DNA from: a virus
DNA: 22,945 bases
Virus record (IMG/VR): IMGVR_UViG_3300029448_000470
Coordinates: 1 to 22,945 of that record
Direction: 5' to 3' (one strand)
Part shown: positions 4,442-21,200 of the stretch, one piece after another
How the letters are laid out: each line of letters begins with the position of its first letter
Position numbering within the stretch: position 1 is the first letter of the stretch
Notes under the pieces: generated by a model
What the model was told of the DNA's origin: nothing
Database searches by the model: none
The model's input: only the letters and a program-made list of their open reading frames with translations
Position numbers and translations under genes: made by a program

Positions 4442-5291
4442 AGAGACAACCCAGGCCGATGCCGGATCTCAAGGAGCAGCCGAAGCTGCACCAGTTACAT
4501 TTATTGATTCACTACCCGAAGATTTAAGATCAGAACCAAGTTTAAAAAACTTCACGGACTCGGCTTCCCTGGCAAAAAGCTATGTTCACGCGCAAAGATT
4601 AATTGGCGCTGATAAAATTGCTATTCCAAAAGGCGGTTCAACTCCGGAAGAATGGCGATCCGTTTATACAAAACTTGGCGCGCCGGAAACACCGGAAGCA
4701 TATCAGTTTAAAAACAAAGATTTTTTTGAACCCGAAGCGCTTACAGTCTTTCAAAAACAGGCTTATGATGCCGGATTAACCGGTAGACAGGCCGATCAAA
4801 TGGTTGAATACCTGGCAAACGCAAGCCAGGAAAGCGAAAACGAGTATAATACAGGAGCGCAAGCTGCCCGGAATGAGGGATTGCAAGCCCTGGAAACAGA
4901 ATGGGGAGCAGCTTTTGACCAGAAAATGACCCGCGCCAGGAGTGCTGCTTTTTCAGAATTACCTACGGAAGTGCGCGAAGTCCTCGATGATAATGGAAAA
5001 ACAGTAAAACAAGAAGTTATTCCTTTATTTGAAGATACGCTTTTGGCAGATGGCCGGGTTCTCGGTGATATGCCGGAAATCATAATGATGTTTGAAAAAC
5101 TCGCAGATAGTATGAGCGAGGATACTTTGGTTGGAGAACAAACTTCTCTTATTAAAACTCCAGATCAAGCATTTCGGGAACGAGAGGAAATTGTAAAGGA
5201 TACACAGGGTCCATATTGGGATCAATACCATCCGGAACATAAAGCCTATGTTGCCCGAGCATTAGAATTACAAGAGTTAATTAACCCTTAA
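4434..5291 (+). CDS. Capsid assembly scaffolding protein (T7 gp9-like position)
   Basis: A 285-residue acidic protein (T7 gp9 is about 307) encoded between portal and capsid. It starts with a disordered Ala/Gln/Glu-rich segment (MSEETTQADAGSQGAAEAAP), then FIDSLPEDLRSEPSLKNF, LAKSYVHAQRLIG and PKGGSTPEEWRSVYTKLGAP. These blocks are typical of phage scaffold/capsid assembly proteins, which guide capsid polymerisation and leave before DNA entry. The second half is helical, with an acidic tail ending in ARALELQELINP. No protease motif is visible, so exit without cleavage as in T7 and P22 is plausible. The gene overlaps the preceding gene by 8 bases and ends before the structured leader of the capsid gene. 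Confidence 0.85.
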   Translation: MSEETTQADAGSQGAAEAAPVTFIDSLPEDLRSEPSLKNFTDSASLAKSYVHAQRLIGADKIAIPKGGSTPEEWRSVYTKLGAPETPEAYQFKNKDFFEPEALTVFQKQAYDAGLTGRQADQMVEYLANASQESENEYNTGAQAARNEGLQALETEWGAAFDQKMTRARSAAFSELPTEVREVLDDNGKTVKQEVIPLFEDTLLADGRVLGDMPEIIMMFEKLADSMSEDTLVGEQTSLIKTPDQAFREREEIVKDTQGPYWDQYHPEHKAYVARALELQELINP

Positions 5292-5435
5292 TTAGCTCTG
5301 TATAGTAGACAAGCGAAAGCCCTACGACACCAAACTTGTGTGCCAAGTGGAATTGACCGTCCTTATCGGTAAGTCCGACCCTTCGGGATAATCAGACGCG
5401 AAAAACTTTCAATTTAAAATAGCAAGGAGATTGTA
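5292..5435 (+). promoter_or_regulatory. Structured untranslated leader of the capsid gene
   Basis: The 144 bases between scaffold and capsid hold no gene but fold well on paper. GTAG/CTAC (5305-5308 with 5322-5325) encloses GC-GAAA-GC with a GNRA loop. ACTTG/CAAGT (5334-5338 with 5344-5348) is flanked by CC/GG. A longer hairpin at 5358-5398 has CGTC/GACG, then TTATC/GATAA (5363-5367 with 5387-5391), then CCGA/TCGG closing a CCCT loop. A strong AAGGAGA (5424-5430) precedes ATG 5436. There is no U-run, so it is not a normal terminator. It could be an mRNA processing or stability element, or carry a phage promoter I cannot recognise. Confidence 0.5.
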
Positions 5436-5642
5436 ATGTCAACGACTATTACAACTGCATTTGTCAATCAATTCTCGGCAAATGTTACAATGCTATCTCA
5501 ACAGCAAGGTTCCCTTTTGCGCTCGACCGTAGATACGGAATCCGTTAATGGTGAGAAAGCATTTTTCGACCAGGTGGGATCGGCAGCAGCCGTAGCCCGC
5601 ACATCAAGACATAGTGATACACCACTCATGGACACCCCCCAT
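5436..5642 (+). CDS. Major capsid protein, exon 1 (residues 1-69 of 285)
   Basis: First exon of the major head protein, the HK97-fold subunit that forms the icosahedral shell. It begins MSTTITTAFVNQFSANVTML after a strong AAGGAGA Shine-Dalgarno and ends ...SDTPLMDTPH. Unspliced mRNA would stop at TAA 5643-5645, the first three bases of the intron, giving a useless 69-residue fragment. Removing 5643-5904 joins CAT (His69) to ACA (Thr70) in phase 0 and restores the expected motif DTPLMDTPHTRRMVTLQDYE, which is continuous in capsid proteins of this kind (Phage_capsid_2-like). The spliced protein is 285 residues. Codons here use more C-ending synonyms than neighbouring genes, as expected for a highly expressed gene. 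Confidence 0.9.
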
Positions 5643-5904
5643 TAATCTTAGTGGCCTAGTATAGTAATATACTTTGCAAACTCTGTGAACTCAGGGGAAG
5701 CCTAAGTTAGAAATAATATGGTAATCCTGATCCAAGCCTGGTGTAAGCCAGGAAGGTGCAACGACTATCCTTTTTAGGAGTAGGGCTAAGCAGCCCGAAG
5801 CGCAGAGCATCCCAAGCGGATGGTGATATAGTCTGATCTATATAGAAATATATAGCAGTTTTTAGAAACGGTTTTGGTTTAGCGATCCAAAGCGAACATA
5901 AATG
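5643..5904 (+). ncRNA. Self-splicing group I intron (IA-like, no homing endonuclease) in the capsid gene
   Basis: The conserved group I elements are present in order. P1: exon CCAU (5639-5642) pairs with GUGG (5651-5654), giving the required U-G wobble at the 5' splice site. P2: AGTATA/TATACT with a GUAA loop (5658-5673). P3: CTCTGTG (5681-5687) with CGCAGAG (5801-5807). P4/P5 region: about 5688-5708. P6: CCTGG/CCAGG (5737-5752). P7: GACTA (5763-5767) with TAGTC (5829-5833). P7.1: TCCT/AGGA (5768-5779). P7.2: GGGCT/AGCCC (5783-5796). P8: CATCC/GGATG (5808-5822). P9: CTATATA/TATATAG with a GAAA loop (5838-5855). The intron ends in G (5904). AAGA in exon 2 (5907-5910) can pair with TCTT (5646-5649) as P10. 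P7.1/P7.2 point to subgroup IA, and the core strongly recalls the T4 td intron. At 262 nt it has no room for an endonuclease. Confidence 0.9.
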
Positions 5905-6555
5905 ACAAGACGAATGGTGACACTACAAGACTATGAATACGCAGATCTAATCGACTCCCAAGATAAGGTTCGATTACTCGCGGATCCCACGAGTACCTAT
6001 AGTCGTGCTGCAGCTTTTAGCATGGGAAGAGCAATGGATGACGTAATTATTGATGCGTTTAATGCTTCTGCAAAAACTGGTAAAGATGGCACAACTTCAA
6101 CATCATTACCGGCCGGCAATATTATTGCTCATGGTTCTGCAGGGCTTACGATTGCTAAACTCGTAACCGCGAAGAAGAAACTTGACCAGGGAAGTGTGGA
6201 TCCGTCCATTCAACGATACATTGTTGTAACGCCCGAACAAATTGAAGATTTGTTGAACACGACGGCTGTTCAAAGTTCTGATTTCAATACTGTCAAGGCG
6301 CTCGTTCAAGGAACGGTGGACACCTTCGTCGGCTTCAAATTTATCGTTTCCAATCGTTTAAAAGACGATGGCACATCGCGTGAGTGTTACGCCTGGGCAA
6401 TGGATGGGATGAAACTTGCTGTTGGCCAGGAGCCGGTAGCGAGAATCGACGAGCGAGCAGATAAGAGTTATTCAACTCAAATCTATTATTCACAGACGAT
6501 TGGCTCCACAAGGATGGAAGAAGCCAAAGTCATTCAAATTCTATGTAACGAGTAG
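5905..6555 (+). CDS. Major capsid protein, exon 2 (residues 70-285)
   Basis: Second exon, starting TRRMVTLQDYEYADLIDSQD, a highly recognisable block of podovirus capsid proteins with the Phage_capsid_2-type HK97 fold. Later segments include RLLADPTSTYSRAAAFSMGR, an AMDDVIIDAF helix, the YIVVTPEQIEDLL block and FIVSNRLKDDG, with a C-terminal STRMEEAKVIQILCNE. An ATG at 5902-5904 is created by the last three intron bases and lies in frame, so naive gene calling would report a 217-residue gene from 5902. No Shine-Dalgarno precedes it, and the N-terminal arm would be missing, so I treat it as an artefact. The stop is followed by AGGAAAGGAG, the ribosome site of the next gene. Confidence 0.92.
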   Translation, partial: TRRMVTLQDYEYADLIDSQDKVRLLADPTSTYSRAAAFSMGRAMDDVIIDAFNASAKTGKDGTTSTSLPAGNIIAHGSAGLTIAKLVTAKKKLDQGSVDPSIQRYIVVTPEQIEDLLNTTAVQSSDFNTVKALVQGTVDTFVGFKFIVSNRLKDDGTSRECYAWAMDGMKLAVGQEPVARIDERADKSYSTQIYYSQTIGSTRMEEAKVIQILCNE

Positions 6556-10252: not shown

Positions 10253-12507
10253 AAATACCTCTTTATACATCAAGAGCAACGGCAACCAATCAAGCGCCTG
10301 GTTCAAGCATTACTGCGCGTAAAAACCCGCAACCTTTTGTTAATGCAGCTTTAGCTAAAGCAGAAGTAGCAAATACCGCTCTTTCGGCTGTTGGCCAGTA
10401 TGCTAAACATCGTTTTGAAGTTACCAGGGATAATTTGCTTAATGAAGCTAATCTTGGAATACAGGAAGAACTTTACACTCGTTCCAGGGAATTAGCTGAC
10501 AGTGATGATATAGATAATGTTCTTGATGGCGATAATCCAATATGGAGCCAAGAAGTACAACGCATTACAGATAAGTATAAAAAAATTATTCGTAATGATG
10601 AATACAGTCAAAATACTTTTAACTTAAAAAGTAAACAAACTGAAATGCAACATAGGTTTTGGTTGCGAAACCAGGTTGACCAAAAAATTGATGTAAAATC
10701 AGTTAATAATTATGTTCTTGGGGTAAAGCAGCTTGAGGACCGGTTGGGAACCTACGATATAACGGAACAAGATTTTATTCTTGAACGTAATAGAATTGTA
10801 AGGGAAGGTGAGGACTTACTAAAAAAAGGATTGGTAAAACCAGGTTCTATTGAAGATACAATTTATAATCTTACAAAAACCCTGGCTCGTAAAAGCATAA
10901 CGGATTTTATCACTCGCAATCCTAATCGTGAATTGCAAACTTTAGATACAATACGAAAACTTATTAGAGATAACCCAGGAATGAAACGCGCGCCGGATAT
11001 GATAGGCAATCCGGAAGAAGCTGCGTTAATGAATGAATTACGATACCCATTAACTCTTTTAAGAGACTTGGATCCGGTTGACCAGGCGCAAGTGCTTGGC
11101 AACACAGATACAATAATAAATGAAATCTATGGTCCTACTGCTATGGAAAAAGCAGAGGCTATTCAACAAAAGGCCATTAAAAAAGAAAAAGAAGCAGAAT
11201 TAACAGCCCTTAGAAAAACAATAAAAAGCCAAACAACTGACATTACTACAATTATTTCAGACAGATTAGCCAACGGATATGATCTTGATGATGATACATT
11301 ACAAACTATTACGGACGCTAACGACCTTGTAAATTCTCTTGAAGTAACTCCAGAAAACGAAGAAGTAATTAAAAACTTTCGTAGAGAATATAAAAATCTA
11401 CAAATAGCGCAATCGCTTAATAAAAATCTTGCAAGAGCCACACCCTCGGAAATAGCCCAGGAATTACGGGAATTATACGCGCTTGGACCAGAAGCACAAA
11501 AAAACGAAAATACTCAATTTGCTATAGATTACCTTGAGAAGTTTCAAAAGAAAAACAATGACGGAATAAGTACAGATCCGCTTAATCATTTTGCTAAAAC
11601 TGAAAAAACCGATATTGGACAACTTGATTTAACGCACGCAAGTTTGCAAGATGGATTAGGAAATCAAAATGCTATTTCAATGCGAAAGAAAGCAGCATTA
11701 AGGGCCGAAGATCGTTACCAGTTACCAGAGGTTGTTTATCTTACAAATCAAGAAGTCAGTTTATTAAAAGATCAATTTTACGACGGAAATGTTAATTTAA
11801 AAATGGATATTCTTGGCGGGTTAGAACGCCAATGGGGAACAGCAGCAAAAGATATATTTAAACAGCTTGGTTTTAATGATGCTCAATTTACCCAAATAGC
11901 CGGGTTATATGGCGCAGGGGGAACGAGTGATACACTCAAGCGTATTCTTGTTGGGATGGATAAAGAAAAAAATAACACAAGTGCGGTGGATCCCACAGCA
12001 ATTACGCCATTAATAATTGCAGAAGAATTTGCAGATGAATTTAGTGATGTTTTTCCGGATGGTTTTTATTCTCAAGAGGATATTGCTGCCATTCAACAAA
12101 ATGCACGATATTATTTATTAAGCGGTACAAATCTGCAACCGCGTCCAAGAGATATTGAAGATGCTATTATTGCTGTAACCGGCCTAAATAAAAACACAAA
12201 TACTGGTGGTTTACAAAAATACAACAAAAAATATTTTCTTGCGCCAAGTGATGTTTCTGGTGAGCAAGTATCGGAGGCTTTAGAGTTATTTCCACCGGCT
12301 GCCCTGGAAGATCAAGGCATTGATGTATCAGCATTTGATCCAGATTTATTTGAGGAAATACGCAATGAACAATTTGACATTTTAAAATTTGCTCCTGGAC
12401 AATATATTTTTGTTGATGAAGGTGTTGTTCTTGCAGATGCCGAAGGTAATGTATTAAAGGTTGATTTAAGCGCGTTAGTTAAGTTTGTCGAAAGGACACA
12501 AAACTAA
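10249..12507 (+). CDS. Internal virion protein (T7 gp15-like)
   Basis: A 752-residue protein, close to T7 gp15 (747), lying between the gp14-like and the largest internal protein. The chosen start is TTG 10249, overlapping the preceding TGA and preceded by GGGAGG about 9 bases upstream. It is almost entirely helical and charged, with no membrane segment or catalytic motif I can see. Blocks such as FVNAALAKAEVANTALSAVG near the N-terminus and a KAEAIQQKAIKKEKEAELTA coiled-coil-like helix near residues 297-321 support a core-stack protein. It probably assembles on the portal inside the head and is ejected to span the periplasm. The assignment is mostly positional. The stop shares a base with the next ATG. 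Confidence 0.75.
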   Translation: MKIPLYTSRATATNQAPGSSITARKNPQPFVNAALAKAEVANTALSAVGQYAKHRFEVTRDNLLNEANLGIQEELYTRSRELADSDDIDNVLDGDNPIWSQEVQRITDKYKKIIRNDEYSQNTFNLKSKQTEMQHRFWLRNQVDQKIDVKSVNNYVLGVKQLEDRLGTYDITEQDFILERNRIVREGEDLLKKGLVKPGSIEDTIYNLTKTLARKSITDFITRNPNRELQTLDTIRKLIRDNPGMKRAPDMIGNPEEAALMNELRYPLTLLRDLDPVDQAQVLGNTDTIINEIYGPTAMEKAEAIQQKAIKKEKEAELTALRKTIKSQTTDITTIISDRLANGYDLDDDTLQTITDANDLVNSLEVTPENEEVIKNFRREYKNLQIAQSLNKNLARATPSEIAQELRELYALGPEAQKNENTQFAIDYLEKFQKKNNDGISTDPLNHFAKTEKTDIGQLDLTHASLQDGLGNQNAISMRKKAALRAEDRYQLPEVVYLTNQEVSLLKDQFYDGNVNLKMDILGGLERQWGTAAKDIFKQLGFNDAQFTQIAGLYGAGGTSDTLKRILVGMDKEKNNTSAVDPTAITPLIIAEEFADEFSDVFPDGFYSQEDIAAIQQNARYYLLSGTNLQPRPRDIEDAIIAVTGLNKNTNTGGLQKYNKKYFLAPSDVSGEQVSEALELFPPAALEDQGIDVSAFDPDLFEEIRNEQFDILKFAPGQYIFVDEGVVLADAEGNVLKVDLSALVKFVERTQN

Positions 12508-15500
12508 TGAGCATAATTAATCCAAGCAATCCAGAAGGATTTTTTACGCTTCAACCAAAAACCGAAGCAAGTACAGGATTTGCAGAAAACTTTAGGCAAT
12601 CAGTAAAAGCAGCGCAAGAAGCCCAAATGGGTAATTCGCGTCATAATAATGCAAAAGAAATATGGGCTGACACCATAGAGCGCCTTGAGGCGGTTGCTAT
12701 AGAAAGTGCAGACAATCCAAATTTTGAAGGGTTAAATTTAAGAAATCCGGAATATTATGGAAGCATTGGTATAGATTTTTTATTACCGGAAGAAACAGAA
12801 AAAAAGTTTTTAAAAAATTATCATAACGCTGCAAATAAAGTAATTAACACTATCAATGAATTTAAAGATGAACTTAAAAGTAAAGATCCTACACTCTTAG
12901 ATATTAGTATTGAATCTGTAGAGGAACAAACAAAACAAATATCCAGGGATGCTCTTGAAGAATTTGAGGATTTTAACAAAGCTGATAAAACTTTTATGGG
13001 TAAAATAGGTTCTTTTGCCGGTGGATTTAGAGCAAATATAACGGATCCTGTTAATATAGCTGTAACGGCTGCTACACTTCCAATGACTTCTGCAAAAACT
13101 TTGCTTGGTGTAATGTTACAAGAAGCAATGATTAATGCGGGTGCAGAAACTTTAGTGCAATCAGAAGTAAGGGATTGGTATAAGGAAATAGGCGCTGAAT
13201 ATACCCAGGAAGATTTTAACCGGGCCGTTCGTGACGCTGCTTTGTTTGGTGCAGTTTTTTCCGGAACACTTAAAATCGGTGGTAAAACTATAAAACTAAC
13301 CGCCAAACAAATGAAAAAAGGGTTGGAGTTATTACGCGGGGGTAAAAATAGTCCGGCAAATAAAGCTGCAGAACAAGTATTAGATATTGTTGAACACTCC
13401 GAAAACTCGCCTATTGTAAGTAATGTTGAACATCAAAAAAGAGTACAAGAAGCAGATATAGCTGTTGCAAATAATGTTGCTCCAACAACGCCAAACACGC
13501 CTATATCGGCTGTAAAAACTAGCGCGCTTGACCGTAAAAGTTCTATGTTTCAACAGTATGATCCCGACGAAATAGAGGTCGATGCAAAAACATTTCAGTT
13601 TAAAAGTGATGGTGATGAATTTGGAGTTACGGAACGATTAAAAGGAGTAACAACCTGGGATGAAGATTTAGCCGGTATAATTTCGGTTTATGAATATCGT
13701 GATGGCCGGGCTTTCATTGCAGATGGACACCAAAGATTAGGATTGGCCAAACGACTTCGATCCGAGCAACCAGACGCAAATATAATTCTCAACGCAATGG
13801 TATACCGGGAAGCTGATGGTGTAACTCCAGAAATGGCCAGGGTGCGCGCTGCGGTTAAAAATATCGCCCAGGGAACAGGAACCCCGCTCGATGCTGCTAA
13901 AATCTTTAGAGAAGCACCAGACGAATTTTCACGATTACCACCAAAATCAGCCCTGGCTATGATGGCTCAAGGAATTGGTAAGTTAAAAGGTGATGCCTGG
14001 GGAATGGTTGTCAATGAAAAAGTAGACTTTAATATTGCTGCAGAGGTTGGAAAAATACTGGATGAACCAGGACAACAACTTGCAGCCATGAAAGTCCTGG
14101 CTAATTTAAAAACGCAAGGTAGGCGCGTTGACCGAGGCCAGGCTGAACAAATTGTACGGCAAATACGCGAAGAAGGTTTTGACGCAACGACACAATCAAG
14201 TTTATTTGGCGATGAAGTTTTACAGGAAAGTGTTTATTTAGAACGCGCAAAAGTTTTGCAGAATGTTATTAAAAAACTAAAGCAGAATAAAAGAGTGTTT
14301 TCTACACTTACAAGAGAAGCCGGGCGTGTTGAGTCTGCCGGTAATGTTTTAGCTAAAACAGCCAATGAACGGCTGCTTAACCAGGATAATATGATTTTAC
14401 AAGGTCTTTCAAGCCTGGCCAATCGAAAAGGGGTATTATCAGATGAGCTTACGAAAGCAGCCAAAATCTTTAAAGACACAAAAAGTCTCACAAAAGCAAC
14501 AGACGAATTTTCCACAGCTATCGAAAGAGCAATATCAGATGGCGATTTCGCAAGGGAGATTGGACGCAGCCCTGGACGATTTGATGAAAATACAGGCCAA
14601 AGTTTACAACTACAAGAAGAGCCAAGCCAGGCAAGCGCAGACTTAGAAAAGTTTTCCGAACCAGGAGGAAAAGGATCTCAAGAACAAACTGCTCAAATGA
14701 AAGAAGAAAAGTTTTCTGCCGAAGAAATGGAAAGAGACAATCTTATTCAGTTAATAGATAGTGGTGCTGAACTTGATGAAATAGGGCAGCATCCGGCCGT
14801 TATTAGAGCATTAGAACAACAAAATGAAATGCCTTTAACAAGCGAAATGCCTGGCTATGGTAGCGCGGAATGGAACGCAAACCGGGTTTTTAATTTTAAA
14901 GATGGTCCGGTAAAAGGTTATTCAGATGCTATTAATAAATTTTTGGTAAATGCTGAAAGTTTAGCCTGGGATGAAATGAACATACCGTTTTCTAAAGATT
15001 TAATTAAACGCCAAAAGAAAGCAGTTATTGTTCTTGGCGCGCCGGCTGCCGGGAAAAGTACACTTGCAAATCCAATCGCTGTAAAATACGGCGCTGCGAT
15101 TGTTGATAGTGACGAAGTTAAAAAAGTTATGCCAGAATTTGCAGCCGGGGTTGGTGCAAACGCTGTTCACGAAGAAAGTAGCGCTATAGGTAAGTCTATT
15201 CTTAACGCTCAAATAGCTATGGGAAATAACATAGTTTTACCAAAAGTAGGTGACAATTTAAAATCTATACAAAAATCGATTCAAAACTTTAAAGATGCCG
15301 GGTACGATGTAACTGTTATGAATATGAAAGTTTCGCCCGAAGAAGCAATGAAGCGTATGTTTTTACGCTTTGCAAAAACAGGACGCTTAATAAACGTAAA
15401 ATATGCAAGTGGGATACTTGACAATCCAAGTCAAACATATATATCTATAAGAGAGAAAGGAGATGCCGATGGCTTCATCGAAATCGACAACAATGGGCCT

Positions 15501-15809
15501 TTCGGAGAAGAACCCTTCATCATCGAAGATACAAGAAAAATCCTGGAGGGATTTCGATTTCGACATGATCGAAGCGGAAAACCGAGGCGAGTTACATTCG
15601 GAACAGAACCATCAACTGTTGATCGCACAAGCGGTCAAATTCTTGAAACAGAGACACAAGAAGGTTTAGACTTTGAGGTATCTCTTGAAGATCAACTTGA
15701 TACCAATACCGGTGAAGTAACTTCCCAACTTAAAACTCTTAGACAAGTAAAAGAAGAATTGGATCTTGACGAGAATATTGTCAAGCGATTGGAGTATTGC
15801 GTGGTATGA
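12507..15809 (+). CDS. Large polyvalent virion protein with ParB-like and zeta-toxin-type kinase domains
   Basis: A 1100-residue protein in the place of T7 gp16 but without a visible N-terminal transglycosylase. Residues 1-330 are helical, with a hydrophobic stretch near 183-215. A ParB/sulfiredoxin-like domain at about 340-470 carries ADGHQRLGLAKRL with the DGHQR signature at 406-410. After a helical middle and a low-complexity linker (about 695-745), a zeta-toxin/UDP-GlcNAc-kinase-like P-loop domain spans about 836-1010. It has Walker A GAPAAGKST at 844-852, the acidic DSDE at 867-870 after a beta strand, and the Arg-rich helix MKRMFLRFAKTGRL at 948-961. The C-terminal TNTGEVTSQLKTLRQVKEEL segment recurs in such phage proteins. 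The protein is probably ejected with the DNA and may act in the host; substrate unknown. No antitoxin gene is adjacent. Confidence 0.8.
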   Translation: MSIINPSNPEGFFTLQPKTEASTGFAENFRQSVKAAQEAQMGNSRHNNAKEIWADTIERLEAVAIESADNPNFEGLNLRNPEYYGSIGIDFLLPEETEKKFLKNYHNAANKVINTINEFKDELKSKDPTLLDISIESVEEQTKQISRDALEEFEDFNKADKTFMGKIGSFAGGFRANITDPVNIAVTAATLPMTSAKTLLGVMLQEAMINAGAETLVQSEVRDWYKEIGAEYTQEDFNRAVRDAALFGAVFSGTLKIGGKTIKLTAKQMKKGLELLRGGKNSPANKAAEQVLDIVEHSENSPIVSNVEHQKRVQEADIAVANNVAPTTPNTPISAVKTSALDRKSSMFQQYDPDEIEVDAKTFQFKSDGDEFGVTERLKGVTTWDEDLAGIISVYEYRDGRAFIADGHQRLGLAKRLRSEQPDANIILNAMVYREADGVTPEMARVRAAVKNIAQGTGTPLDAAKIFREAPDEFSRLPPKSALAMMAQGIGKLKGDAWGMVVNEKVDFNIAAEVGKILDEPGQQLAAMKVLANLKTQGRRVDRGQAEQIVRQIREEGFDATTQSSLFGDEVLQESVYLERAKVLQNVIKKLKQNKRVFSTLTREAGRVESAGNVLAKTANERLLNQDNMILQGLSSLANRKGVLSDELTKAAKIFKDTKSLTKATDEFSTAIERAISDGDFAREIGRSPGRFDENTGQSLQLQEEPSQASADLEKFSEPGGKGSQEQTAQMKEEKFSAEEMERDNLIQLIDSGAELDEIGQHPAVIRALEQQNEMPLTSEMPGYGSAEWNANRVFNFKDGPVKGYSDAINKFLVNAESLAWDEMNIPFSKDLIKRQKKAVIVLGAPAAGKSTLANPIAVKYGAAIVDSDEVKKVMPEFAAGVGANAVHEESSAIGKSILNAQIAMGNNIVLPKVGDNLKSIQKSIQNFKDAGYDVTVMNMKVSPEEAMKRMFLRFAKTGRLINVKYASGILDNPSQTYISIREKGDADGFIEIDNNGPFGEEPFIIEDTRKILEGFRFRHDRSGKPRRVTFGTEPSTVDRTSGQILETETQEGLDFEVSLEDQLDTNTGEVTSQLKTLRQVKEELDLDENIVKRLEYCVV
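15463..15669 (+). CDS. Candidate overprinted small gene inside the polyvalent virion protein gene
   Basis: This frame (+1 relative to the host gene) encodes a 66-68 residue protein. AAGGAG at 15457-15462 sits exactly 6 bases before ATG 15469, an ideal ribosome site; ATG 15463 is too close. The product starts MASSKSTTMGLSEKNPSS and has a plausible helical C-terminal half, SWRDFDFDMIEAENRG then QLLIAQAVKFLKQRHKKV. In this stretch the main frame changes its synonymous choice to C-ending codons (TTC, ATC, AAC, GAC), unlike the TTT/ATT/AAT/GAT seen in the rest of the gene, as expected if a second frame constrains it. I do not recognise a family. The alternative is a chance open frame. Confidence 0.5.
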   Translation: MPMASSKSTTMGLSEKNPSSSKIQEKSWRDFDFDMIEAENRGELHSEQNHQLLIAQAVKFLKQRHKKV

Positions 15810-18299: not shown

Positions 18300-21200
18300 A
18301 TGACCATTAGTAGCACGACCAATTCTGTTTCTTTTAATGGAAACGGCTCAACCACCGTATTTGCGTATTCGTTCAAAATATTTGCTGCAGCCGATATGCA
18401 AGTTATTTTGCGATCCTCAACTGGTACGGAAACCGTGAAATCGCTAACGACTCATTATAGTTTGTCAGGGATAGGAGAAACTAGCGGTGGTAATGTTACA
18501 ATGGGTACGGCTCCGGCTTCCGGGGAAACATTAACATTAAGACGCATAAAATCTTCGGTGCAAGAATTGGATTTGGTTGCCAATTCGAGTTTTCCGTCCA
18601 GTTCGATAGAAGATCAGTTAGACAAAATAGTTATGATGATTCAGCAAAATGATGAAGATATATCAAAAGCTATTAAGTTATCGCCTTCAAACACGATGAC
18701 TTCCACAGAATTTACAAATTCCGCAACAGACCGGGCAAATAAGTTGTTAAGTTTTGATGGCAGTGGCGAGTTATCTGTAGCCCAGGAGCTAGGCTCATTT
18801 AAAGGCGATTGGGGAGCTTCTACGGCCTACGTTGTTAGGGATTTGGTAAAGGACACAAGCACAAACAATGTGTTTATATGTATTACTGCCCACACAAGTT
18901 CTGGATCTCAGCCTCTTACGACAAACACAGATTCAGCAAAGTGGTCTTTAATTGTTCAAAACTTAATTACAACGCAGACAGATATAACATCGATACTTAA
19001 TTCAAGTTTGGTGGTTGGCCGTGATGCAAATAACAAACTCGACTTTGGAACGGCTGATACTGTTATCGTCAAAGCAGGGGGAGCAAACCAGGTAAAGGTT
19101 GTTGATGGTGCAGTCGTGCCTATCACCGATAACGATGTAGACTTAGGAACAACATCGCTTGAATTTAAAGATATGTTCATTGATGGAACGGCGCACATTG
19201 ATACGCTTGATGTTGATGTAAATGCGACTGTTGGCGGTACGCTTGGTGTAACTGGCGCAACGACATTAGCGGCAACTTCCTTTGGTGATGCTGATATTAC
19301 GAATGTTGGCAACATCGCTTTAGACAGTATTACGGCTGATGGTTCTACAATTACAATTACTGGTAACACAACTTTTGCTGATGGTTCGTATGATTTTGAT
19401 GTAGCAAGTCACGATGGAACAAACGGTTTAAAACTTGGCGGTACGCTTGTAACTTCTACAGCAGCAGAGTTAAATATATTAGATGGCGTGACTTCTACAG
19501 CTGCGGAACTGAATATCTTAGATGGTGTTACATCTACGGCAGCAGAGTTAAACATATTGGACGGCGTTACAAGCACGGCTGCGGAGTTAAATATTCTTGA
19601 TGGTGTGACGGCAACGGCTGCGGAACTAAACGCCCTGGACGGTATTACGGCTGTGGTAGGAGAGCTTAATGCCTTAGACATAGGTAGTACAGCAGTAGGT
19701 ACAGCGGTCGCTTCTAAAGCTGTAATATTAAATTCTGACAAAGATTACACAGGAATAAGAAACTTTACAATTACAGGTAATCTGACTGTAGGTGGCACAA
19801 CAACCGTTGTTGATACGGTTACGATGAACGCACAAAACGCTGTAGTTTTTGAGGGAGCTACGGCAGATGACCACGAAACAACTTTAAGTATTGTTGATCC
19901 TACTGCTGACAGAACGCAGTATTTAATTAACCAGGGCGGTTATATTCCGTTGCTTGCAGCCGTAACAACAACTGCGATTACATCTACTCCAGAAGAACTT
20001 AACATTATGGACGGTGGCAATTCCGCTTCATCTGTTACACTTGCTGACGCTGATAGAATTATTGTCAACGATAACGGCACGATGAAGCAAGTCGCTTTGA
20101 CAACATTGAATACTTATATTGGTGGAAGTACAACAAGTGTTGGTGCATTAAATAGCGGTAGTATAACTTCTGGTTTTGGTTCGATAGATAATGGATCGTC
20201 AGCTATTACAACGACAGGCACAGTTACCTTTGGAAGTTTGTCTGACGGCACGATAACGGCTACAGCTTTTGTCGATGAAGATAATATGTCATCAAATTCA
20301 GCAACGCTTATTCCAACGCAACAAAGTGTAAAAGCCTACGTAGATTCTGTTGCAGGGTCTGCAAATAACGTAACAGGACTTAACGCAACAGGCACAGAAC
20401 TAAACGCTGTTGCCGATGGTGATACTTCTGCTAGTGCAATCACGGTTGTTGACGGAGATCAAATCCCAATCAATGATGCTGGAACTATGAAGCAAATTAC
20501 GGTTCAAACGCTTTCTGCTTACCTGGACGATGAAATTACTGCCATGCCTAACCTTGTAAGTACAGGTGCTTTAGATAGTGGCTCTATAACATCTGGGTTT
20601 GGAAATATAAACATAGGCTCTTCTACAATTACAACCACAGGTGCATTATCCAGTGGAACTTTAGGCGTTGGGATTACTTCACTTGGTCGATCTCCTCTTC
20701 ATGTGCATACATCAACGGACGATACAGATAGTAACATCCATTTAACAAGCAATGAAACAGGATCAGGTTCTAGCGATGGTTTTACTCTTGGGGTATCAGC
20801 AGGGGGTGCAAATGATTTAGACGCATATTTTATTCAGCGTGAAAACGCTAATATTAGATTATTAACAAATAGCACAGAACGTATGCGTATTGACAATTCT
20901 GGCAATGTTGGGATTGGCACAAGTTCAATCCCTGCTGCTAACACTGCTTATCTTACGGTAGGAACACAAGACTATTCTTTAAGCCATAATGGATTTGCAA
21001 AAAATACCTATTTTGATGGTTCTAATTATGTAGCCGTTTCTGCTGGTGCAGGGAAATTAATTCAAATGGGCGATGACATTTTATTTTATTCTGCTGCTTC
21101 AGTGAGCGCTGGCGCTAATCAAACCCTTGTTGAACAAATGCGTATTCTTAGTACAGGTAATGTTGGGATTGGCACAACTAGCCCTTCTTCACCTTTAACT

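Follow-up and report, generated by a model that had tools for sequence, protein, structure and literature searches.

A self-splicing group IA-type intron very probably splits the major capsid gene of an HTVC010P-kind marine podovirus, one of a set in this gene

A marine podovirus of the HTVC010P kind has a major capsid gene that is very probably interrupted at positions 5643-5904 by a self-splicing intron of group IA type, and this intron belongs to a set that appears to have colonised the gene repeatedly. The gene lies in the window analysed here, a viral genome fragment of 22.9 kb (22,945 nt) with a GC content of 35-46%. The boundaries of the intron, its fold, the covariation of guide and exon, the empty alleles and the recurrence of such introns in related genes are observed directly; that the intron is spliced in cells, and how such introns spread, we infer from these sequences.

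The order of genes in the window (terminase, connector, scaffold-like, capsid, tail) is that of HTVC010P (NC_020481), and HTVC010P-type pelagiphages are relatives of this phage. The first-pass annotation of this DNA had spoken of a T7-like podovirus, which is appropriate in that the portal is a T7-type connector, but the phage is of HTVC010P type and not strictly T7-like. Elsewhere in the window, positions 12507-15809 encode a protein of 1100 aa in the internal virion protein region, in which residues 835-991 form a Zeta_toxin domain (Pfam E 8.9e-19), and tandem copies of STAAELNILDGVT are present at 19400-19750 within a tail-fibre-like ORF of 1233 aa. Capsid genes of HTVC010P type were also found at both ends (L370 and L371) of the 38-kb contig PAOW01000004.1, which is labelled as a euryarchaeal MAG and is probably a phage genome binned by mistake.

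Boundaries of the intron and the split capsid gene

A cmscan search of the whole window revealed a match to RF00028 at 5639-5855 (86.1 bits against a cut-off of 50, E 5.6e-21) and none to any other Rfam family. The ORF at 5436-5645 reads ...MDTPH and is closed by TAA at 5643-5645, with the remaining capsid coding sequence downstream. Two IMG/VR contigs, L002 and L003, contain an uninterrupted capsid gene, the product of which is 99% identical in amino acid sequence to the spliced protein of the window. The DNA of these contigs is about 88-92% identical to the window across long aligned blocks, and the alignment stops exactly at 5642 and restarts exactly at 5905. Because both alleles break at precisely these positions, the insertion comprises 5643-5904, a total of 262 nt, and it is situated between codons 69 and 70 of the capsid gene, the parts of which are as follows:

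5436..5642, + strand: capsid exon 1, 69 codons, ending ...CCC CCC CAT (P-H); assigned from the ORF and homology of the spliced protein
5643..5904, + strand: group I intron, 262 nt, in-frame TAA first and G last; assigned from RF00028 and the exact empty-site alleles L002 and L003
5905..6555, + strand: capsid exon 2, codons 70-285 and stop (T-R-R-M-V...); assigned from the ORF and alignment to intronless homologues

The spliced capsid protein has 285 aa and spans the whole of Pfam Phage_capsid_2 (E 1.6e-92); its alignment with the proteins annotated as major head protein in HTVC010P and HTVC034P is unbroken over the full length (67% aa identity). A covariance-model search and an alignment with intronless homologues had been proposed as checks in the first-pass annotation, which placed a group I intron of 262 nt at DTPH/TRR. 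The RF00028 score and the empty alleles show this placement to be correct to the base, and the capsids of relatives continue past DTPH in unbroken alignment. Likewise upheld was the claim that the intron has no endonuclease, since no ORF lies within the 262 nt and no homing-endonuclease domain was detected in the window.

With TAA as the first three bases of the intron and the remaining capsid sequence downstream, capsid synthesis would have to depend on splicing, as had been noted. It had also been proposed that splicing acts as a checkpoint that times late capsid expression. An in-frame stop in an essential host gene is all that favours such a role, which is unsupported and very unlikely: a stop just 3' of the 5' splice site is usual in group I introns of protein genes (PMC3073962), and about 94% of the judgeable relatives among the matches listed, including the nearest ones with their 99% identical protein, have no capsid intron.

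Fold of the intron

Folded unaided as a single sequence, the window intron forms P1, P2, P3, P4, P5, P6a, P7.1, P7.2, P8, P9 and P9.2 (-73.9 kcal/mol, z -1.97). The window helices, with P7 included as a pseudoknot and P1 left out, were then counted on an alignment of 28 introns from this work. In these introns, 91.6% of helix cells pair, as against 33-42% in slid versions, and changes on both sides are present in 46 of the 59 helix pairs. The individual elements are:

5639..5654, + strand: P1, CCAU-UA (5' splice site at the hyphen) with UAGUGG, U.G at the 5' splice site, internal guide sequence GUGG at 5651-5654; from sequence, fold and guide/exon covariation
5646..5910, + strand: candidate P10, UCUU 5646-5649 with AAGA 5907-5910 in the 3' exon, four pairs; from sequence inspection only
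5658..5673, + strand: P2 with GUAA loop; from the fold and the 28-intron alignment
5681..5807, + strand: P3, CUCUGUG 5681-5687 with CGCAGAG 5801-5807; 100% of cells paired, both-side changes in 5 of 7 pairs
5691-5695/5726-5730, + strand: P4; 98.6% of cells paired
5700-5702/5720-5722, + strand: P5; 71% of cells paired
5737..5752, + strand: P6a with GUAA loop; 100% of cells paired
5763..5833, + strand: P7, the guanosine-binding helix, GACUAU 5763-5768 with AUAGUC 5828-5833; 98.8% of cells paired
5769-5778, + strand: P7.1; from fold and alignment, less well aligned, 76% of cells paired
5783-5796, + strand: P7.2; from fold and alignment, less well aligned, 67% of cells paired
5808..5822, + strand: P8; 96.4% of cells paired
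5838-5855 and 5872-5892, + strand: P9 (GAAA loop) and P9.2; 94-97% of cells paired

The core helices P3-P8, including the P3/P7 pseudoknot, are present in the window intron, as is the trait of subgroup IA in its td-like form IA2, P7.1 and P7.2 between P7 and P3'. Such a pair of hairpins is typical of group IA. The group IA pairings claimed from a first reading of the sequence were therefore recovered as a complete IA-type fold, P7.1/P7.2 included.

In the transcript, the 5' splice site would be presented by P1 (CCAU with guide GUGG) and attacked after U5642 by the guanosine that P7 binds, whereupon the freed exon would attack after G5904, such that CAU is joined to ACA and the capsid of 285 aa is restored. 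The initial TAA may keep ribosomes off the intron core. A quite different reading is that the intron no longer splices and that the capsid exists as two pieces or in truncated form, with exon 2 possibly translated from the ATG at 5902, which overlaps the last three intron bases and opens exon 2. This is highly improbable given that the core helices are all intact and P1 fits, that exon 2 is as constrained as its counterpart in intronless relatives (99% aa) and that inspection revealed no recognisable ribosome-binding site before 5902.

Recurrence in related capsid genes

An IMG/VR scan for the intron core gave, among the matches listed, at least seven further split genes of the capsid family of the window, which were confirmed by RF00028, and more were added via IMG/VR scans that coupled the intron core to capsid exons. 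Splice sites were mapped against a profile of 80 intronless capsids. Eleven insertion sites were found, after coding nt 127, 180, 190, 195, 198, 204, 207, 251, 276, 596 and 772. Among the genes mapped, site 207 is occupied in the window only; an IMG/VR pattern scan able to catch introns at this site returned introns at 190 and 195 only. The capsid introns are 188-279 nt long, all without ORFs and too small for an endonuclease gene. Split genes carry one to three introns: genes with two are common in the set, and three are present in L163, L224, L227 and L229, with every intron of these four genes matched by RF00028.

With the introns removed, nearly all genes uncut by a contig end encode 285-288 aa, those with three introns included. 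The exceptions are L202 and L222, in which the C terminus is two residues longer, and site 251, which needs one extra codon. For L217 and its relatives, which have the intron at site 251, the best splice solution inserts a Y relative to all intronless capsids (WADL-Y-IDD).

The frequency of introns was estimated with an intron-blind IMG/VR pattern (TRMEExKVV), which gave 90 complete uninterrupted capsid genes, 6 split genes and 23 partial genes among the matches listed. In this sample, 6 of 96 judgeable genes carry introns (roughly 6%, about one in sixteen). The capsid matches of cultured HTVC-type isolates in GenBank are in one piece. In each of 50 intron-bearing records, which together comprise about 572 kb, there are as many above-cutoff RF00028 matches as capsid introns, an agreement by count and not by coordinates in records longer than their locus. 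Because these 50 records were picked for capsid introns, confinement of the introns to the capsid gene is conditional. RF00028 gave no match in 80 records with intronless capsids. Many of the contigs may derive from the same virus populations. The capsid gene looks like a hotspot for group I introns, and the window intron is not unusual inside its own phage group.

Pairing of guide and exon

U is the last exon base and G the last intron base at all eleven sites, the corresponding elements of the window being CCAU/GUGG and G5904. A guide match of at least four consecutive bases, with U.G counted, is present in 81% of distinct combinations of exon and intron start, as against 12% on average, and 32% at most, when exons were shuffled. 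The guide covaries with the exon at site 127 (GCCT/GGGC, GGCTT/GAGCC and GCGT/GCGC), at site 190 (CCAT/GTGG and CCGT/GCGG) and at site 180 (CTCT/GGAG and CGCT/GGCG). P1 is weaker at site 198, where it contains G.U, and has three pairs by strict count at site 596. The second mapping of the sites scored the guide too and is hence somewhat circular, but the first was guide-free and gave the same position at eight sites; the sites of the 195 and 251 introns were set by inspection and the guide rule.

Evidence for movement and routes of spread

Intron presence on a capsid tree of 179 genes requires at least 14 gain/loss changes, and a polymorphism for presence and absence of the intron is clear between the window and L002/L003. 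The expectation of the first-pass annotation that an intron of this kind could be fixed in place is contradicted both by these changes and by the intron-free alleles in nearly identical capsid genes. In a tree of the introns themselves, those at 596, 251, 772, 195 and 198 form one clade per site. At site 127 there were at least two entries, a single clade of its introns being rejected (AU p 0.012). The position of the window intron on this tree is not firm; a grouping with site 190 is absent yet not rejected (p 0.11). The exon next to the window intron has a further feature:

5905..5931, + strand: exon tract with an excess of silent differences, the first 27 nt of exon 2 (Fisher p 0.0005, 0 of 20000 permutations)

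This tract contains 6 of the 35 differences shared against both L002 and L003, all silent, and looks like a co-conversion footprint, on one side only. A search for its donor found none, the best other flank matching 30 of 36 bases, no better than L003.

These observations bear on how introns without ORFs could have entered the capsid gene at eleven sites. Spread would most likely have occurred when a phage recombined with a co-infecting relative that bears the intron, an endonuclease acting in trans. According to this explanation, which we judge somewhat likely, intronless capsid genes would be cut by a free-standing enzyme whose gene lies either in the part of the genome that the fragment lacks or in a co-infecting phage, and the ORF-less intron would be copied together with flanking exon. 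The coexistence of alleles with and without the intron, a 3' tract of silent differences that begins at the insertion site and the grouping of same-site introns mostly in one clade (596, 251, 772, 195 and 198) are all consistent with such trans homing. Precedents are the T4 nrdB intron, which mobE mobilises in trans, and "collaborative homing" (PMC2988022).

The search for an endonuclease argues in the opposite direction. HNH, HNH_3, NUMOD4, GIY-YIG and LAGLIDADG_3 gave no match in the window, GIY-YIG was absent from the 50 intron-bearing records, and HNH, NUMOD4 and LAGLIDADG_3 were absent from the 14 longest, these records being fragments. Three HNH_3 matches were rejected as homing enzymes, being small proteins of 72-110 aa beside terminase, about 5 kb away. 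Near the capsid introns there is, as far as these sequences and the tested families go, no plausible endonuclease candidate. Eleven sites would in addition demand either many specificities or one tolerant enzyme.

A second route, which we regard as rather unlikely, is reverse splicing into new sites of the capsid mRNA that offer a guide match of 4-6 nt, followed by reverse transcription and recombination. Abundant capsid mRNA would be the main target, and the site-207 intron of the window would be of site-190 type, shifted by 17 nt. Sites 207 and 190 both follow CCAU, their introns share the guide UUAGUGG and have near-identical first 13 nt, and the nearest intron to that of the window by identity is a site-190 intron (71%). 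The different sites all have guide matches, and in the 50 records, picked as they were for capsid introns, the introns are confined to the capsid gene. However, the intron tree does not place the window intron with site 190, although it does not reject this either, and the similar 5' ends may be no more than a consequence of the common guide pairing. No reverse-transcription agent is known here, and spread by reverse splicing is, to our knowledge, rarely documented in phages. The broader proposition, that the capsid gene serves specifically as a target for group I introns without endonucleases, which reach new sites in this gene by an RNA-level route (guided reverse splicing) and not by classical homing, is a shade more doubtful still.

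A structured leader upstream of the capsid gene

A second RNA feature adjoins the capsid gene and is separate from the intron:

5291..5435, + strand: structured capsid mRNA leader, 145 nt before the ATG, with hairpins H1 at 5305-5325 and H4 at 5377-5393

The same position is structured in about 200 related loci. A recurring leader hairpin, in which a YAR bulge lies next to an A.C or G.U wobble, was found in 57 of 83 dereplicated leaders (1.6 expected), its mirrored form in 42 of 83 (4.0 expected) and both hairpins together in 30 of 83 (0.1 expected); the descriptor was made after reading the sequences, and these counts are descriptive. Around 210 capsid genes there are 154 strict hairpin matches, 122 of which lie no more than 200 nt upstream of the start codon. 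Another 16 of the 154 form a smaller peak some 1.0-1.2 kb before the capsid start, around where the scaffold-like gene would be expected to begin in some relatives. The consensus fold of the leader from automatic alignment is poor because the hairpins are misaligned, and no Rfam family matched the leader, which is possibly a new RNA element controlling capsid expression.

Comparison with known systems

Group I introns of phages are usually discussed as single insertions with their own endonuclease in polymerase, reductase and terminase genes. The window intron resembles the group IA introns of T4 type (td and nrdB) in its IA architecture with P7.1/P7.2, its P9 extensions, the U.G at the splice site and the 3' G, and its core has a DNA similarity of 71.8% over 152 nt to the nrdB intron of T4-like phages, other phage introns being similar too. 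Unlike td and nrdB, it is without an endonuclease ORF and lies in a structural and not a nucleotide-metabolism gene.

Twort too has several introns in a single gene, the three-intron gene being orf142, but this is of another gene family and has no many-site pattern across a phage group. The three group I introns of one Twort gene are described in work cited in PMC11620839. Introns in the major capsid gene are known from the mycobacteriophage LittleE and the lactococcal phage Tuc2009 (PMC3706429); as in the window, a probable group I intron splits the gene and a relative has an intron-free allele, and for LittleE splicing was shown by RT-PCR (PMC3706429). The LittleE intron differs in having a predicted LAGLIDADG ORF and a siphovirus host, and LittleE and Tuc2009 have a single site each (PMC3706429). 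Because the LittleE and Tuc2009 capsid introns and the three-intron gene of Twort are already known, the window intron is of a known kind. What is new is the colonisation of one capsid gene at many sites, and the initial description of such an intron as uncommon was accordingly half right, given the known capsid introns (PMC3706429) and the eleven sites and roughly 6% of genes in this phage group. The intron-rich phage Jug and the Bastillevirinae have many group I introns, with two or three in some genes, but these are in polymerase, terminase or reductase genes and often with endonucleases (PMC12363816, PMC11878797).

Among known systems, the closest whole-intron DNA match to the window intron (71%) is in the major head gene of C72C1 (OQ984150, L082), a phage of 35 kb. 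This intron (L082 2934-3174; RF00028 81.8 bits) lies between two fragments annotated as major head protein, and the annotation keeps the gene split. Protein searches did not recover the C72C1 head protein among relatives of the window capsid, and a single guess of the 5' splice site gave no open frame. No report of capsid introns in HTVC010P-type phages or pelagiphages was found in the open-access literature.

Significance

Across the relatives of pelagiphages found in marine metagenomes, introns have entered a single short and highly expressed structural gene at eleven sites, and one copy of the gene can contain as many as three of them. The capsid gene is a common marker, and automated annotation splits it in about 6% of these phages among the matches listed. 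Natural pairs of intron-plus and intron-minus alleles make the spread of ORF-less introns testable.
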